Below, piece by piece: positions 10,107 through 20,178 of a stretch of 37,783 nucleotides of DNA; within the stretch, counting starts at the first letter, position 1, and every line of letters starts with the position of its first letter. The position numbers were made by a program, and so were the translations under genes. The stretch comes from Bacteroidaceae bacterium (GTDB lineage: Bacteria; Bacteroidota; Bacteroidia; Bacteroidales; Bacteroidaceae): the NCBI GenBank assembly GCA_017462065.1, contig JAFTRV010000051.1, positions 1 through 37,783 on the forward strand, written 5' to 3'. Under the pieces are notes generated by a model that worked only from the letters and a program-made list of their open reading frames with translations, made no database searches and was not told the origin of the DNA.

Positions 10107-10116
10107 CGTATTATTC

Positions 10117-10166
10117 ATATAAAAAGCGTAGCGGAAACATTTTGTGTTCCGCTACGCTTTTTATAT
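10117..10166. terminator. Bidirectional terminator, pyrH / beta-helix protein
   Basis: Arms 10117-10139 and 10145-10166 pair over about 22 bp with one bulged base, around GCGTAGCGGAA and its complement. T- and A-tracts on either side make it usable in both directions. It separates pyrH (+) from the five-gene operon ending at 10181 (-). Confidence 0.8.
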
Positions 10167-10180
10167 GGGGGTTGTTGCTC

Positions 10181-11845
10181 TTATTCAGCCTCTTTAATCA
10201 TTAGCCAGCCTCCTTTTTGCGTCGCTCCGTTCTTGAATGCCGTAGCGTTTTGGCTAATAGCGTGCAGTATTCCGTTCGTAAGGTTCGCATTGGTGGTTGA
10301 AACGGCATAGCTGTATGCGCTAAGCACTGTTCTGCCGCCAGTGACAATCAGGTTGTCCGCATCTACGGCAACGCTCTTGCTGTCGTCGTCGTCTGCCCCG
10401 TTGAAGTTCTCGGCCTCTGACAGTAATGTAGCTTCGCCGCCCTTTATCATCGCAATCTTGCAGTTCAGGCCCTTGGCTCCCTTGCCGCTGCACTTCATGG
10501 CTATCGTGCCGTTGTTTAAGGTGAAGTTGCCCTCGCACTTGATGCCGCCAGCCGATGTGGTGTCGTTCAGCACTGTACCTTCGCAGAAGCCTGTGACTTT
10601 TCCGTTGTTGAACGTGATGCTCTTGTCGCAGTTGATAACTTTAGAGCCGTTGCCTTTTACGGTTCCGTGGACAATGCCGCCGTTCTGCACGAACTCTCCG
10701 TTCGTCTTTATGCCCGAACTCTTGTCGCCTGTAGTGGTGAACTCGACATATCCTCCGTTGATTGTGGCTTTAGGAACAATGAGAGGGTCGGGCTCTGTGG
10801 CTTCATATACGGCTTTAATAGCCTCTCCGCCCGATATTATAGTTGTCTTTCCTGCATCGATTATCACTTCGCCTTTGCCGCAGTCAATGCCGTCGTTAGC
10901 TGCGGTTATATTAATGACCGGAGCATGTTCTGCCGTGCGGCTTATCATTAGCTTGTCGTTCGTGTGGAAGCCGTCCTTCGCAGCGTTCTTTATGTTAATG
11001 TTGCCACTGCGTATTCTAATATAGTCGTCGCTGCATATGCCATGCCCTCCGAGGCTGGTAACGTTAAGCGTTCCCGTACCGTCGAATATGAGCTGTCCTT
11101 CGCTGAAAAGCGTTCCTTTCTGGTCCTCGTATGTTATTCCGTCGCTGCTCAATACCGGGGCATTGTATGTGGCGCCGTCGCATAGGCTGTTTGTGCTTCC
11201 CTCTTCGACAGTTAAGTATACAGTCTTTCCCGTCTGTATGTTTATGGCCGGGCCTGCACTGTTCGTAAGGTCAAGCCCGCATAGCACGAGCTGGAACTTC
11301 TTGGGACTGTATATCTTAAGCGAGCCGTTGCCGCTCTTTCCCGAAACTACATATGCCGTTTTTCCTTTCGTTCCTGTAATGACAAGGTGCGCTCCATCCT
11401 TAGTATATGTAACTACGCTGGTGTTTCCGCTGACAGCGACATCGTTCTCCGTGAACTGTATGTCTATTACATAAGAAACCGTAAAGTTCTCGACAAAGTC
11501 TCCCGATTCGTCTATCAGTTCGTCTGTGATAATGGTCTCAGTTACCTCGTTGTAGCTCTTCTTGTCGTTGCTGTCGAACGAAACAGTGGGAGCGAGGCTG
11601 TATTCAAGCTTCTCCTGCTTGTTGCCGGTCTTGGATATATCCTCGACCTTGTCCGTGTGGAAACTATGCCTCTCGCCCTCGTTCATGGAAAGGGTGACAA
11701 TCTTCTTCGCTTCGTCGAAGGTAATCTCGCTGACCGCTTTTGTGTCAAGCGGCAGGGTAGTGCCGTCCGTGTTGTTCACGTTTATTACCTGTGCTTGCAG
11801 GCCGGCTGCTACCAGCAGCATTGTCGCAAATGTATATCGTCTCAT
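10181..11845 (-). CDS. Exported beta-helix carbohydrate-binding-type protein
   Basis: A 554-residue protein with a signal peptide (MRRYTFATMLLVAAGLQAQ). Residues 20-75 contain a short beta-rich segment. From about residue 140 the sequence resembles the Cthe_2159 (PF14262, DUF4353) carbohydrate-binding family: repeated rungs such as GGHGICSDDYIRIRSGNI, AAKDGFHTNDKLMI, AANDGIDCGKGEVIIDAG and SGGEAIKAVY, which fit a right-handed beta-helix with bound metal at the Asp/Asn turns. Some family members bind acidic polysaccharides. The ligand here is unknown. It has no C-terminal T9SS tail, but its ATG overlaps by 4 nt the stop of a gene that encodes one. It is the last gene of the VTC operon. Confidence 0.85.
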   Translation of the reverse strand: MRRYTFATMLLVAAGLQAQVINVNNTDGTTLPLDTKAVSEITFDEAKKIVTLSMNEGERHSFHTDKVEDISKTGNKQEKLEYSLAPTVSFDSNDKKSYNEVTETIITDELIDESGDFVENFTVSYVIDIQFTENDVAVSGNTSVVTYTKDGAHLVITGTKGKTAYVVSGKSGNGSLKIYSPKKFQLVLCGLDLTNSAGPAINIQTGKTVYLTVEEGSTNSLCDGATYNAPVLSSDGITYEDQKGTLFSEGQLIFDGTGTLNVTSLGGHGICSDDYIRIRSGNINIKNAAKDGFHTNDKLMISRTAEHAPVINITAANDGIDCGKGEVIIDAGKTTIISGGEAIKAVYEATEPDPLIVPKATINGGYVEFTTTGDKSSGIKTNGEFVQNGGIVHGTVKGNGSKVINCDKSITFNNGKVTGFCEGTVLNDTTSAGGIKCEGNFTLNNGTIAMKCSGKGAKGLNCKIAMIKGGEATLLSEAENFNGADDDDSKSVAVDADNLIVTGGRTVLSAYSYAVSTTNANLTNGILHAISQNATAFKNGATQKGGWLMIKEAE

Positions 11846-12297
11846 CTCTTTACAAATTTAGCGGTGCGGTCATCAACTTTTATTATATATATGCCTTTGG
11901 GCAGTTGAGCGATGCTTGCTACGCCGTTGTCGGCCTTTTGGCGCGTGCATATGACTTCTGTGCCAATGATGTCGTATACGGCAATCGTAATTCCCGCTCT
12001 GCAGTTCACGGCTATCGCATCGTTCGAAACGTAGGCAATAAGTTTTTCTGCTTCAAGCTCAAGATTGTCGATATTGCTGTAATCGCCGAAGTGTATTCTG
12101 CTTATCTCGCTCATGGCGGCAGAGAGTGTGGTGCCGTCGGCTTTGGTTATATTTACGGTCACGTCATCGAATGTTATCTTTTCAAATTCGCTGAATTCAA
12201 TGGTTTCGCTGATGCTTCCTTTTTCCACAATCATCTGTTGCGCCATAGCCGGTATGGCTGCGGCTAAGAATAAAATAATCGTGTAGAATTTTTTCAT
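11842..12297 (-). CDS. Small exported protein with T9SS-type tail
   Basis: A 151-residue protein with a signal peptide (MKKFYTIILFLAAAIPAMAQ). A roughly 50-residue beta segment follows (FEKITFDDVTVNITKADGTT, then SEISRIHFGD). The C-terminal ~80 residues match the type IX secretion type A sorting domain: IAVYDIIGTEV, then LPKGIYIIKVDDRTAKFVKR at the very end. It should be exported across the outer membrane and possibly anchored to surface LPS. Almost no passenger domain is present, so it may be an adaptor or surface anchor for a partner. The neighbouring beta-helix protein is the obvious candidate, because their genes overlap by 4 nt. The partner role is inference. Confidence 0.8.
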   Translation of the reverse strand: MKKFYTIILFLAAAIPAMAQQMIVEKGSISETIEFSEFEKITFDDVTVNITKADGTTLSAAMSEISRIHFGDYSNIDNLELEAEKLIAYVSNDAIAVNCRAGITIAVYDIIGTEVICTRQKADNGVASIAQLPKGIYIIKVDDRTAKFVKR

Positions 12298-12308
12298 ATA
12301 TTCCCTTT

Positions 12309-13148
12309 TTAAATGTCTAATGAATATTCGACGCCGACTGCATGTCCGCTCGGCTCGTCATCGTCGCTCTTGTCCTGGTAGAGGTAATAGAGCGAAATGG
12401 AGTTCTTCTTGTTTATTTTCCAGGTGCCGCCTGCACGGTAACGGAGCTTGTCGTACCCTTTCCATTTGTCGAGGCGTGTATAAAGCTCTACCGATGCGAA
12501 AGGCGTAATCTTGCACTTCGGGATGTCGTACTTCACCTGCAGGCGCGAGCGGAGCGAGAGGTCGTTCTTGGCGTTCTTGAACTCACGGTCTACGGTTACC
12601 TTTTCTTTCCATTCCCCTTTATATCCGCCTTCTCTCTCGTAACGTACTTTCTTCTCGTCAATAGTCGCCGAGCCGGTATGCGTGTACTGAAGACGCTCGC
12701 GCAACGAAATTTCGAAACGTCCTATCTTGTATTCTCCGCTGATTGTGGCATATACCCTGTTGCGTATAGTCCAATAGTCGGCGTCAATGTTCTTGTTGTA
12801 ATATCCGAGCTCGGCGTCAATCTCCTCCTTGATGCTCGTTTCGCTCATTTTGTGCCCGTAAATGAAGCTATAACCGACATTAGCCTTAACCCACTTGATT
12901 ATTTTGTAGTCAATTTTAGCGCCTATCGCAATACGCTCGGCGTCTTTGACAGCCTTTATCGTACGCACTTCGGCGTCGATAACGAACTTGGTGTTCTTGG
13001 TGGCTTTCTTCGAGAACTCGGCTGTTGCCCAAATTCCGAATTCGTCACCTCTGTCCTGCGCGTCAATGGTGCTGAACGACGTGCATGCGAGCGTGGCCGC
13101 AAGCATTATTGCAGCCAGGCGGCTTTTAGTTCTTGAGTTTGTATTCAT
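12309..13148 (-). CDS. DUF2490 outer-membrane beta-barrel protein
   Basis: A 279-residue protein with a signal peptide ending near IDAQ (about residue 31). A series of alternating amphipathic strands follows, such as EFGIWATAEFSKKAT, KFVIDAEVRTI, KWVKANVGYSFIYGHK, YRAGGTWKINKKNSISLYYLYQ, and a terminal AVGVEYSLDI. This pattern and the layout match DUF2490, predicted outer-membrane barrels of unknown function. The start overlaps the end of the DUF4956 gene by 23 bp, which strongly suggests translational coupling. It could be the outer-membrane component of the operon's putative export or assembly path. Confidence 0.85.
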   Translation of the reverse strand: MNTNSRTKSRLAAIMLAATLACTSFSTIDAQDRGDEFGIWATAEFSKKATKNTKFVIDAEVRTIKAVKDAERIAIGAKIDYKIIKWVKANVGYSFIYGHKMSETSIKEEIDAELGYYNKNIDADYWTIRNRVYATISGEYKIGRFEISLRERLQYTHTGSATIDEKKVRYEREGGYKGEWKEKVTVDREFKNAKNDLSLRSRLQVKYDIPKCKITPFASVELYTRLDKWKGYDKLRYRAGGTWKINKKNSISLYYLYQDKSDDDEPSGHAVGVEYSLDI

Positions 13149-13983
13149 CTACCGGAGCTTTTAATGTTGTGTCTACCGAATTGTTCGACTGACCGCTTTT
13201 GTAATACATCTTTACTATAGCCGCATCCTTTAGGAAGTCTATGCTGCCTACCTCAACCTTTTCAATCTTAAGGCCTGTACGCTTTTCAAGGTCTGCAATA
13301 AGTTCTTCTCTCTTGTCGGTCGCAATAAGGTTTATGTTGTCATATTTGATTACTTTGTATGAATAGTGGCTTATTAGGAGCTTGCTTTCGCATATCCAAA
13401 TGGATATAATGAACAACAAATTTATTATAAGCACCTCGCCGTAGCTCAGCTCGCTGACAGTAAGGCCGTTTATCGCACTTATCGCTATTATGATGAAAAG
13501 GTATGTCATCTCTCGTATCGCAACCTGCTCGGTACGGTATCTGATGATGCTGAATATGGCGAATAGTCCCAGAGCTATGCCCGCTTTCAGCTTCACGTCG
13601 CCAAGCACGTATATGAGCATGAATGTGCTTATGGCTATAAGAATGTATGTGAAGAAGAACTCTCCACGTTTGCATTTTGGATAGTATAGCCCACGCACGA
13701 CAATCATTATGGCGATGAGGTTTATCAGGAATGCGATTAAAAGGTCTCTGACGTGCGGCACGTCTATGAACTTGTTGTCGCTTATTCTCTTCTCCTTAAT
13801 GCCGATGGACATCTTCTCTTCTTTGAAGTCATCGTCTACGTCAATGTTGTAGCTGTTGTCAAGGACTTCCGTTATTATAGCATTCTCCGCTCCCGCTGTT
13901 ACCGATGCGTAGCTTTGCGCATTCGCTTGTGTATTTATTCCTAAACTAAGGAAAAAAAACAAAAGTGCTGTTATTATTCTCAT
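13126..13983 (-). CDS. DUF4956 inner-membrane protein
   Basis: The ATG at 13983 gives 285 residues with a signal peptide (MRIITALLFFFLSLGINTQANAQ). A TTG three codons upstream is less likely. After a charged region facing the periplasm come five hydrophobic segments: RDLLIAFLINLIAIMIVV, FFFTYILIAISTFMLIYVL, LKAGIALGLFAIFSIIRYR, EMTYLFIIIAISAING and EVLIINLLFIISIWI. A soluble C-terminal domain of about 90 residues (ELIADLEKRTGLKIEKVEVG) follows. This is the DUF4956 family, which often neighbours VTC-domain genes. It begins 10 nt after the VTC stop. It could be a membrane partner or channel for the VTC enzyme; this is inference. Confidence 0.87.
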   Translation of the reverse strand: MRIITALLFFFLSLGINTQANAQSYASVTAGAENAIITEVLDNSYNIDVDDDFKEEKMSIGIKEKRISDNKFIDVPHVRDLLIAFLINLIAIMIVVRGLYYPKCKRGEFFFTYILIAISTFMLIYVLGDVKLKAGIALGLFAIFSIIRYRTEQVAIREMTYLFIIIAISAINGLTVSELSYGEVLIINLLFIISIWICESKLLISHYSYKVIKYDNINLIATDKREELIADLEKRTGLKIEKVEVGSIDFLKDAAIVKMYYKSGQSNNSVDTTLKAPVDEYKLKN

Positions 13984-13993
13984 GTCTGTCAAT

Positions 13994-14761
13994 TTATAGT
14001 TTGTATTCCATTTTATTTATCATTACAAGTCGCTCTTTGAAGTTATTGCGTTTCAGCGTTTTGTTCGTCAGAGCGCTGCCTATGCAGTATTTGCTGAATC
14101 CGGAACGCTTGATGCGCAGCTCCCTTAGGATGTCCAAAGCCGGCGAGGGTACGTTGCCGTCACGTTTCAGCTCAATGATTGCTACTCTGTCCAGCCTGTC
14201 GTGCCCGTCGCTCTTTATGTGGTGAAATCTAAGGTTGAAGTCAATAGTGAGTCGTTCGGTCTTAGCGTAGTTCACTAATGTTATGCGGTTGAACCAGTTC
14301 TCGATGACAGGCGCTATCTCATTAATATCGTACCATGCGTGCTTCTCCATGAATGGTATAATGCTCTCCTGTTCTTCGCCGACAGTGTCGTGCCCTTGAA
14401 TGGCTATTCTTTTTTTCTTGGTGCGTCCGTGATTGTTCTTGTTCTTTATCTCAAAGAATGTATCCTCGCTGTCGAGGTAGGTTCTTACCCTTATCTTCTC
14501 ACGTGTAGTCCTGCCGCAATGGTGCATGTTGTACATCTGGTAGTCCTCGGTGTCGAAGTAGGTCGTGTGGTATGATGCGATGCGTTTCCCGTTGATGTCT
14601 TGGATAAAGTACTTGCCGCGTACGGCAACGAGAAATGCGTGCAACTGCTCGGCGGTTGCAACGAATTTCGTGTCGGTGCGGTTCATCAGTTTGATGCCCG
14701 ACATCTCCTTTAGAGTTATTGGAGGCAGCAATTGTGCCTTTTCTGCTATGCCGTTGTCCAT
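13994..14761 (-). CDS. VTC-type polyphosphate polymerase domain protein
   Basis: A 255-residue cytosolic protein consisting of a VTC/triphosphate-tunnel domain alone. Tunnel-type residues are visible: Lys32 (RTDTKF), YFDT (68-71), Arg91 and Arg93 (KIRVRTY), Glu104 and Lys106 (FFEIKNK), Lys115-Arg118 (TKKKR), Arg170 (RLTIDF), Glu197 and Lys199 (IIELKR) and Lys224 (FSKYCIG). In yeast Vtc4 the equivalent basic residues hold the growing polyphosphate, and a Glu binds metal. There is no SPX domain or membrane segment. I chose the ATG at 14761 because a -7 box at 14828-14821 leaves the upstream ATG (14806) almost at the transcription start. It is first in the five-gene operon. Substrate and product are unproven. 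Confidence 0.87.
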   Translation of the reverse strand: MDNGIAEKAQLLPPITLKEMSGIKLMNRTDTKFVATAEQLHAFLVAVRGKYFIQDINGKRIASYHTTYFDTEDYQMYNMHHCGRTTREKIRVRTYLDSEDTFFEIKNKNNHGRTKKKRIAIQGHDTVGEEQESIIPFMEKHAWYDINEIAPVIENWFNRITLVNYAKTERLTIDFNLRFHHIKSDGHDRLDRVAIIELKRDGNVPSPALDILRELRIKRSGFSKYCIGSALTNKTLKRNNFKERLVMINKMEYKL

Positions 14762-14820
14762 ATGCGTCTCATGTTGTTGGTGCAATGATGTGCCGGCAGG
14801 CGGCATTGCCGTGTTTGTTG

Positions 14821-14828
14821 CAAAGATA
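14821..14828 (-). promoter_or_regulatory. -7 box of the VTC operon
   Basis: Minus-strand TATCTTTG at 14828-14821 matches TAnnTTTG exactly. No clear -33 TTG lies 19-21 nt upstream, where the sequence is A/T-rich. It is the only good promoter-like site before the five-gene operon. Confidence 0.45.
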
Positions 14829-18472: not shown

Positions 18473-20178
18473 ATGAAATCGCATTGCACTCTTTCAAGAA
18501 CGCTCTTTATACTTTTTGCAGTACTTTCTCTTTTGTCATGTAATGACTTTGAAGGCTTGGAAAACAGAGTTGATGAATTGGAAAATAAAGTGTCGAGCTT
18601 AGAAGCATATTGCAGCACTCTCAATTCAAATATCAATTCGCTGAAGTCTGTCATAGACGCTCTTTCGGAATGTGACTAGAGAGCGTGCGCCCGGTTACGG
18701 AAGAGGGGCTTGTTGTCGCATATGACATTAAATTCTCGAAGCAGGGCAATGTCACTATTTATACTAATGCAAATGCCGTCTCGCCTATTATGGGAGTGAA
18801 AGAGTGGGGCGATGCCTATTATTGGACAATGTATGGCGACTGGGTCTTTGACTCTGAAGGCAAAAGGATAGGTACGGAAGTGGTTCCTGTTGTCAAGAAT
18901 GAAGATGGAGCGCTCTGTGTCTCGTTCGATTCTGGTACAACATGGATTGGGATTGACGTGGAACTGCATGACAATGGTTATGTTTGCTTTACAGGCGTAT
19001 CTACCGACGATGACAACGCATGCTTTACTTTGAAAGACGGAACGGAAATAGTCTTGCCGCTCTCTTCGAACAGCATCTTTTCAAGAATTCAATCATTGTC
19101 ATATATCCCAAGATACAGCGACGGAAAAGTGCCGGTCTTCGGCAATACGGCGGAATCGGGGTATGTGGCCCTTGACTTTTCGGTATCTCCCAAGAGCGTC
19201 GTTCCCAAATTGGAGAGCATCTGGCGTTCTGCTGTAATGGTAAAAGCGGTCAAGACAATGGTGCGTGCCGTCTCATATATCGACATGCCTGTATTTTATT
19301 TCTCAGCCGATGCCGCAAATGGCGTGATAACGGTCTATGCATCCACAAAGAATCTTTCAAAGGAGTTCTTTGAAGGTAAGAATTCGGCCAGTCTCGCATT
19401 GCATATAACCGACGGCGATTATGATATCACGTCCGACTATGTATGCATGTTTCCGCTCGGTGTGCGGGTGGTGGCGCATCGCGGCTACTGGAATATTGAC
19501 GAAGGTGTAGAGAATTCAATGAAAGGCTTGCTTGCGGCAGACAGCGTCGGCGTATGGGGTTGCGAACTCGATATCTGGGAAACGAAAGATAGTGTTATAA
19601 TACTGCATCACGACAAGAGTATCGACGGAAAAGTCATTGAGGAAACGAATTACAGCGAGATAGAGAAACTTGCGTTGCCCAATGGCGAACCGTATCCGAC
19701 ACTGCGTGAGTATCTTCTGACTTACAGGGATAAATGCTTTAAGACTAAGCTGATAATAGAGCTCAAGCCTCATTCGACCTCTGAGAAATCAAGACGTGTG
19801 GCAAGAAATACTGTGGCGATGGTCAAGGAGCTTGGTCTGGAGGATTGCGTTGAGTACATATCGTTCAGCAGTATTCCGTGTGACGAGGTGATAAAGAATA
19901 CGCAAGGAGCAAGAGTCTCGTATGTAAGCGAGAAGATAATTTCTGTGGGCGGTTATGCCGCAAAAGGGTATACGGGCATTGATATTAGGTCTGATGTCCT
20001 ATCGTCAAATCCATGGCTTGTAACAAATGCGCATAGTGCAGGCATGGAGGTTAATTCCTGGACTGTAAATGATGAGGATGTTGCCCGAAGCCTGATAACT
20101 CTCGGAGCGGATGTGATTACAACTGATATTCCTGAAAGGATTCAGGAAATTATCGTAGAAATGGCTTTGGCCAAATAA
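18473..20178 (+). pseudogene. Frameshifted GDPD lipoprotein with DUF4988-like N-terminus
   Basis: Two overlapping reading frames encode one protein. The first part (18473-18679, 68 residues) is a lipoprotein start with lipobox LLSC (Cys23) and a coiled coil at 27-65, ending SECD-stop. The second (from about 18676 to 20178) continues in another frame with ESVRPVTEEG, a DUF4988-like segment (VTIYTNANAVSPIMGVK, YYWTMYGDWVFDSEGKRIG). It then carries a glycerophosphodiester phosphodiesterase domain with AHRGYWN, ELDIWETKD and LHHDKS, the usual catalytic His-Arg, Glu/Asp and His. Adding one base in GACTAGAG near 18678 restores D-Y-E-S-V-R-P. Either this is a one-base deletion that inactivates the gene or an assembly error. 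A GTG at 18685 could start the second part, but it would lack any export signal. Confidence 0.85.

Follow-up and report, generated by a model that had tools for sequence, protein, structure and literature searches.

In positions 1 to 37,783 of contig JAFTRV010000051.1 from a Bacteroidaceae bacterium (GCA_017462065.1), the whole 37,783-nucleotide stretch being called the window, a minus-strand operon at 10181-14806 encodes a VTC-family enzyme, a DUF4956 membrane protein, a DUF2490 protein, a small protein with a type IX secretion system (T9SS) sorting tail, and a Cthe_2159-family beta-helix protein, in this order. The VTC and DUF4956 genes are inherited as a unit, and DUF2490 and the secreted proteins are joined to this core in the lineage of the window. 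The operon is best explained as a two-protein core with changeable outer parts, in the form found in Bacteroidaceae.

Linkage was analyzed in an order sample of 119 genomes, one per genus, in a phylum sample of 198 genomes, and in 80 named loci, the best of 584 relatives of a DUF4956 query, which are biased to close kin. The order sample held 61 VTC matches in 57 genomes and 71 DUF4956 matches in 62, and for 60 of the 61 VTC matches a DUF4956 gene lay on the same strand no more than 4.2 kb away; at the single exception (G108) the contig ends. In the phylum sample, 41 of 42 VTC matches had a same-strand DUF4956 gene at a distance of up to 5 kb, the exception being a VTC fragment at a contig end. 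By genome, DUF4956 was present in 56/57 (order) and 37/37 (phylum) VTC genomes. The VTC gene stood before DUF4956 in 76 of the 80 named loci. The four exceptions are L121, which lacks a VTC domain, L110, whose VTC domain lies in a frame gapped by N, and two loci truncated by the start of the contig. Among 14 control genomes, 3 matched both families, and no other genome matched either: Bacteroides ihuae, the actinobacterium Corynebacterium glutamicum, and the methanogen Methanosarcina acetivorans, a result on presence only. Two apparent fusions were rejected: the 542-aa VTC-DUF4956 frame of Bacteroides cellulosilyticus (L110) crosses a stretch of N, and the 787-aa frame with VTC in G253 seems, by eye, to be a long frame that arose by chance in GC-rich DNA.

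Trees of 59 VTC and DUF4956 pairs contained the same three clades, A (39 pairs), B1 (9), and B2 (11), with support of 0.93-1.0 in both. Three genomes (G085, G089, and G098) carry two systems each from different clades, and each VTC gene adjoins the DUF4956 gene of its own clade. The distances in the two families were correlated (r of 0.91 overall and 0.41 within clade A, with 0 of 1000 permutations as high), a correlation calculated without species-tree control that alone proves little. In Bacteroidota the VTC enzyme is practically never found without one membrane protein, which makes the pair a definite two-gene target. The sequence-only reading had named a lack of conserved linkage among the families as its refutation; linkage held for this pair and only partially for DUF2490 and Cthe_2159.

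The features of the operon are listed in Table 1. As read earlier, the five genes are separated by a 10-nt gap (VTC and DUF4956), a 23-bp overlap (DUF4956 and DUF2490), an 11-nt gap (DUF2490 and the small gene), and a 4-bp overlap (the small gene and Cthe_2159), and the coordinates confirmed this layout. The strong terminator claimed after the last gene was also recovered, as a hairpin of 24 pairs with one bulge, which was found by folding and was not reported by the consensus-based terminator scan. The VTC reading frame is open from 14806; the ATG at 14761 is probably the start, because the relatives L106 and L107 align from this residue. TAnnTTTG is the Bacteroidota -7 consensus. The single -7 box proposed before the first gene, TATCTTTG, is present, but similar 8-mers are no commoner than chance in the window (26 found vs 23 expected), and the box is therefore graded as plausible; TAnnTTTG occurred in three of six upstream stretches of relatives, once too near the start to count, which is a weak signal. 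The VTC, DUF4956, DUF2490, and Cthe_2159 assignments were all above the Pfam cut-off, and a PHROGs search gave no match for any of the five operon proteins. The nearest named relatives among the 80 loci (L106-L108) are Bacteroidaceae metagenome-assembled genomes from sheep and water buffalo gut.

Table 1. Features of the operon and its flanking signals in the window
Feature	Position	Strand	Evidence
-7-like box TATCTTTG, upstream of operon (plausible)	14821..14828	-	8-mer scan of window
VTC-family (triphosphate tunnel) enzyme, 255 aa	13994..14761	-	PF09359 1.4e-30; probable start by comparison with relatives
DUF4956 membrane protein	13126..13983	-	PF16316 5.8e-55; hydropathy
DUF2490 putative outer-membrane barrel	12309..13148	-	PF10677 3.9e-30
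Small secreted protein, 151 aa, T9SS type A sorting tail	11842..12297	-	TIGR04183 29.4 bits
Cthe_2159-family beta-helix protein, secreted	10181..11845	-	PF14262 5.3e-44; solved relative 4peu 4.4e-5
Intrinsic terminator hairpin	10116..10167	-	Fold -33.4 kcal/mol, z -10.1

The window VTC protein scored 107 bits against PF09359 (cut-off 23), its sole Pfam match up to E 1, and carried no SPX domain match. As a single query it matched no solved structure, and a profile of 59 VTC proteins reached the yeast-type Vtc4 structure 3g3q (2e-15) together with Vtc2 and Vtc3 structures and nothing else up to E 1. In the profile alignment, R106/R108, E212, and K239 correspond to Vtc4 R264/R266, E426, and K458, in the numbering of chain 5iiq, which is three higher than that of 8i6v; R106, E212, and K239 were invariant in the 59 sequences and R108 was present in 58. 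Changes of R264, R266, and E426 are reported to inactivate Vtc4 (PMC9911596), and K458 is called catalytic (PMC4641920). The alignment thus shows that the enzyme keeps Vtc4-type active-site residues. Bacterial polyphosphate is usually credited to cytosolic PPK1 (PMC10657179), for which the genome of the window, 84% complete, gave no match; it is one of 23 of the 57 VTC genomes of the order sample without a PPK1 match. A role of VTC as a PPK1 substitute was rejected, as the presence of the two is independent (PPK1 in 34/57 genomes with VTC vs 44/62 others, P = 0.25).

In the window DUF4956 protein, hydropathy indicated a signal-peptide-like N terminus, about five further hydrophobic stretches, and a C-terminal soluble domain; short basic loops at 100-108 and 148-152 would fit a cytosolic C terminus. 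Among 59 DUF4956 sequences, G139, R150, and F163 were invariant and R148 was present in 58. A search of 60 genomes with PF02308 (MgtC) picked up the DUF4956 gene of G032 (9.9e-5, below the cut-off), and 10 of the 59 DUF4956 proteins matched PF02308 at E up to 0.1, the best at 8.9e-5. In hhalign, DUF4956 branch B aligned with MgtC proteins of the order Bacteroidales at 97.3% probability (E 2e-11, 195 columns), compared to 1.1% for a reversed control and 6-73% for six block shuffles (best E 3e-5). Branch A, to which the window protein belongs, gave 0.7% alone and 84.6% together with branch B. The profiles show homology to MgtC for branch B, and branch A is linked to it only via the shared Pfam family. 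The reading of the streptococcal cassette protein beside Pel genes as MgtC plus ACT is already published (PMC12345266).

The outer genes were less constant than the core. DUF2490 lay within 6 kb of 20 of the 61 VTC matches of the order sample, all in clade A (20/39), and Cthe_2159 was near 6 of the 61. The order VTC-DUF4956-DUF2490-Cthe_2159 was present in 36 of the 80 named relatives, picked as close kin, and a profile of the Cthe_2159 domain only confirmed 36/36 loci (E at most 6e-40). A relative of the small T9SS-tail gene occupied the same place in 20 of these 36 loci; the match covered most of the length in 15 of the 20 and just the first half in 5. The small protein has a type A sorting domain by TIGR04183 (29.4 bits, cut-off 23) and lies slightly under the cut-off of PF18962 (26.4 bits, cut-off 27), and no such domain was found in the Cthe_2159 protein by Pfam and TIGR04183 scans. 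DUF2490 is listed as putative porin family TC 1.B.81 (PMC4827864), and Cthe_2159 proteins are described as binding cellulose and acid sugars (PMC6712302).

Identity to L106, the nearest relative that is whole, was 77% for VTC and 76% for DUF4956, 77%, 73%, and 94% for the flanking LptD, HD, and PyrH genes, and 53%, 48%, and 51% for DUF2490, the small protein, and Cthe_2159, respectively; L107 and L108 give the same gradient for the genes they hold. The inner pair is therefore conserved like two of the three flanking genes, and the three outer genes are conserved less. Lower conservation is common in surface proteins. A second Cthe_2159 protein of 973 aa is encoded off the operon in the same genome (G000:C11:41272-43425). 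A glycerophosphodiester phosphodiesterase-family protein at 18685-20178 of the window, about 4 kb from the operon, is a further gene connected with phosphate but is likely unrelated.

Neighborhoods were read for 60 of the 61 VTC genes of the order sample, G076 being left out. A CotH gene backed by PF08757 stood in 16 of the 60 loci, L080, L071, and L072 among them, and four more (L055, L074, L075, and L077) carry cluster 12 relatives of CotH genes without a Pfam CotH match of their own. CotH was found in 47/57 VTC genomes vs 22/62 others (P = 3e-7). No locus of the 60 held both CotH and Cthe_2159; about two were expected by chance, and nothing was concluded from this. CotH profile matches in L021, L035, and L062 were rejected as T9SS tails and lamin-tail domains, an arylsulfotransferase label in L049 was rejected since Pfam gives PKD and a T9SS tail only, and cluster 19, without a Pfam match and at 38% in hhalign, was kept as CotH-like only and not counted. 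The genome of the window has two CotH-type genes on other contigs, L206 (G000:C63:2981-3979) and L207 (G000:C64:3198-4160), in frames of 828 and 1600 aa.

In nine of the 60 VTC loci, each from clade B1, an adaptor-like gene (cluster 6) lies directly upstream. The assignment of these proteins as HlyD adaptors, made by eye and via L203 only, was rejected: direct comparison gave 14.5%, and the two members scanned had no HlyD match. A histidine kinase and a LytTR-like response regulator follow VTC-DUF4956 in the same direction in L024, L029, L054, L057, L110, L115, L116, and L176, with a Pfam His_kinase match for the L029 member, and are a possible regulator of the system. Arylsulfotransferase-like and regulator-propeller proteins (clusters 7 and 8) adjoin CotH and the VTC operon in L023, L024, L028, L029, L039, and L054; the one member checked from each cluster had a T9SS tail.

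At DUF4956 loci without VTC, 15 of the 23 places in the phylum sample were read and 11 had an export-type neighbor. In nine of these loci (L186-L194), all from a single family, DUF4956 is followed by a co-oriented gene of 326-332 aa, which is HlyD-type in the one scanned (HlyD_D23, 8e-10). Their conserved order of DUF4956, the HlyD-type gene, and a 410-aa helical protein, with DUF6580 upstream in the one scanned, could represent a separate DUF4956 export system; the 410-aa protein looks TolC-like by eye, but the one scanned had no Pfam match, and it was not accepted as TolC. L195 has a biotinyl/HlyD-like gene (8.7e-7), L199 has an OEP gene (1.1e-34), and the CotH-like cluster 19 gene stands beside VTC-less DUF4956 in L198 and, in the order sample, in L060. 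L201 has a putative CotH gene by profile match, and in L196 and L197 no export-type or CotH-like neighbor was found in the loci read. L203 holds together a PF08757 CotH gene (5e-53), VTC, DUF4956, and HlyD_3 (1e-9).

Because of these export-type and CotH neighbors at VTC-less loci, and because of L203, DUF4956 resembles an inner-membrane component of a set that spans the envelope, in which DUF2490 may take the outer place in the window operon. The data also hint at a family relation and at a function for DUF4956. The sequence-only reading had drawn a path from the cytosol (VTC) via the inner membrane (DUF4956) and outer membrane (DUF2490) to the surface proteins. It gains support from the conservation gradient and the export-type neighbors of some DUF4956 genes, and the path as a whole is only partly supported.

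The core is tentatively read, as the likeliest explanation but at somewhat below an even chance, as a membrane-bound phosphate-polymer (or phosphate-signal) module that would feed the envelope. Its outer parts would be DUF2490 together with beta-helix or CotH proteins. The cytosolic VTC enzyme would sit on the cytosolic face of DUF4956, take the terminal phosphate of ATP, and assemble there a chain of polyphosphate or of a similar phosphate polymer. DUF4956, with its R-x-R motif presumably at the cytosolic mouth, would pass the chain, or a signal of chain synthesis, to the periplasm; DUF2490 would provide the outer-membrane passage, and on the cell surface the product would be held or received by the beta-helix and T9SS-tail proteins. 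Synthesis would be coupled to membrane passage as in the yeast VTC complex, without membership in that complex. Polyphosphate as the product and its export are a best guess and not a result. To our knowledge, there is no known route for polyphosphate out of a bacterium; if the proposal is true, it suggests a bacterial way to send a phosphate polymer or a phosphate-based signal through the envelope. In an improbable extension, VTC polyphosphate made at a MgtC-type membrane protein would reach the periplasm or surface as a phosphate source for secreted CotH-type kinases, for which ATP is not available outside the cell; such a dedicated phosphate-chain route would explain the co-occurrence of CotH and VTC in genomes and the CotH genes near VTC loci.

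Several observations weigh against this module, some of them in favor of other explanations. DUF4956 stood without VTC in 23 of 64 matches of the phylum sample, and is therefore not solely a VTC channel; in the order sample this was so for 11 of 71, some weak or close to contig ends. The window DUF4956 protein and branch A alone do not reach PF02308, and the next-ranked families, to which a relation is implausible, score up to 5e-4 with no more than 4 DUF4956 members. DUF2490 is away from 41 of the 61 VTC genes, 28 of 48 DUF2490 matches lie elsewhere, and Cthe_2159 is not beside 55 of the 61. To the same side belong the acidic position 45 of the enzyme, with the mixed reading that it gives, and the phenotype of a streptococcal VTC-type mutant, both described below. 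The low counts for DUF2490 and Cthe_2159 would be expected if VTC-DUF4956 were the sole functional pair and the other three, including the small gene, were unrelated surface genes brought in by chance or general co-transcription. The overlapping reading frames, the one terminator, and the same order in the 36 named relatives, though these were chosen as close kin, argue against such chance neighbors, and this explanation is quite unlikely.

A regulatory module, somewhat unlikely, would have VTC sense or consume ATP or polyphosphate and a MgtC-like DUF4956 act on membrane energetics or phosphate uptake, tuning a surface polymer or protein made elsewhere, with no export through DUF4956. It accords with the MgtC relation of one DUF4956 branch and with the action of MgtC on ATP synthase and PhoR (PMC12345266). 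In the same work, all four Streptococcus intermedius accessory-gene deletion mutants still aggregate and make Pel, including the VTC-type mutant SIR_1593, which is not singled out there. Aggregation in artificial sputum falls by more than half in the SIR_1592 (MgtC/ACT) and SIR_1594 (CotH) mutants, and Pel is increased in the former and decreased in the latter (PMC12345266). From this account and PMC7112168 we infer that SIR_1592 is a DUF4956 protein. The combination of more Pel and less aggregation in the MgtC/ACT-type mutant accords with regulation. A regulatory module leaves unexplained the adjoining outer-membrane barrel, the HlyD-type and OEP genes, and the shared operon with secreted proteins.

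The enzyme could also run in the degrading direction, as a (poly)phosphatase or other triphosphate-using triphosphate tunnel metalloenzyme (TTM) that recycles chains taken up or made outside, which is judged to have a low probability. AtTTM3 Glu-2 and Glu-4 were presumptively placed on residues 43 and 45, a placement in which Glu-4 fits the wording of PMC4641920 badly. Hydrolytic TTM enzymes are described as carrying an acidic patch, and four AtTTM3 glutamates stand where Vtc4 has basic residues (PMC4641920). All 59 VTC sequences have D or E at position 45, vs T in Vtc4, and this residue may match part of the patch. Against degradation, K214 (59/59) and R43 (58/59) are basic where AtTTM3 glutamates are placed, and K239, equivalent to catalytic Vtc4 K458, is invariant; the AtTTM3 counterpart of K458 is dispensable for hydrolysis (PMC4641920). 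The acidic-patch residues thus give a mixed reading between polymerase and polyphosphatase. In L080, a calcineurin-like metallophosphatase gene (L080:5470-6480) lies between the CotH-type gene and VTC; it is a possible polyphosphate or phosphoprotein phosphatase and would suit the degrading direction.

Among known systems, MgtC/SapB (PF02308) shares with DUF4956 the profile homology of branch B over 195 columns, covering the membrane part and the C-terminal domain; DUF4956 differs in being a distinct Pfam family linked to VTC, and the branch of the window alone does not reach MgtC. HlyD-TolC exporters resemble the setting of some DUF4956 genes elsewhere, which adjoin HlyD-type genes or, at L199, an OEP gene, whereas in Pfam the five window operon proteins match neither HlyD nor OEP, and a DUF2490 barrel is present instead. 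The yeast VTC complex, in which the Vtc4 TTM enzyme is combined with a Vtc1/Vtc3 channel, is similar in the R264/R266/E426/K458 equivalents and in tying a TTM enzyme to a membrane protein. It differs in that the window enzyme has no SPX match, its partner is DUF4956 and not Vtc1-type helices, and the setting is the envelope vs the vacuole.

No literature was found on the VTC-DUF4956-DUF2490-Cthe_2159 set in a search whose scope excluded most subscription papers and bioRxiv. BT3498-99 of Bacteroides thetaiotaomicron VPI-5482 are listed as DUF4956 and DUF2490 with a value of -7.6 and 0.175 in the next column (PMC10434189), and a VTC gene would be expected next to them. A Clostridium perfringens locus has two polyphosphate-polymerase-type genes and CotH (PMC11677781). 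In streptococci, clostridia, and bifidobacteria, genes for cotH, poly-phosphate polymerase, and DUF4956 are reported next to Pel genes (PMC7112168), and the authors of PMC12345266 encountered this three-gene synteny in Pel loci only. VTC-DUF4956 was present in 56 of the 119 order-sample genomes. There PF11997, which we take to be part of PelF and which was the sole pel family searched, gave four weak partial matches, none on a VTC contig, and in the genome of the window, 84% complete, it gave no match. Because these matches were weak and partial and never on a VTC contig, the Bacteroidota VTC-DUF4956 loci, 16 or more of them with CotH, are outside Pel. The window operon shares with the Pel accessory cassette a VTC-type gene adjoining a DUF4956 gene, read as MgtC plus ACT in the cassette, and a cell-surface context; the cassette also has a secreted CotH protein. 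In contrast to the cassette, the window operon has no CotH on its contig (C5), the CotH genes of the genome being on C63 and C64, and DUF2490, the T9SS-tail protein, and the Cthe_2159 protein stand in the place of CotH. The operon is a variant of the known CotH-VTC-DUF4956 cassette of Pel loci, and the VTC-DUF4956 pair, at times with CotH, exists away from these loci.

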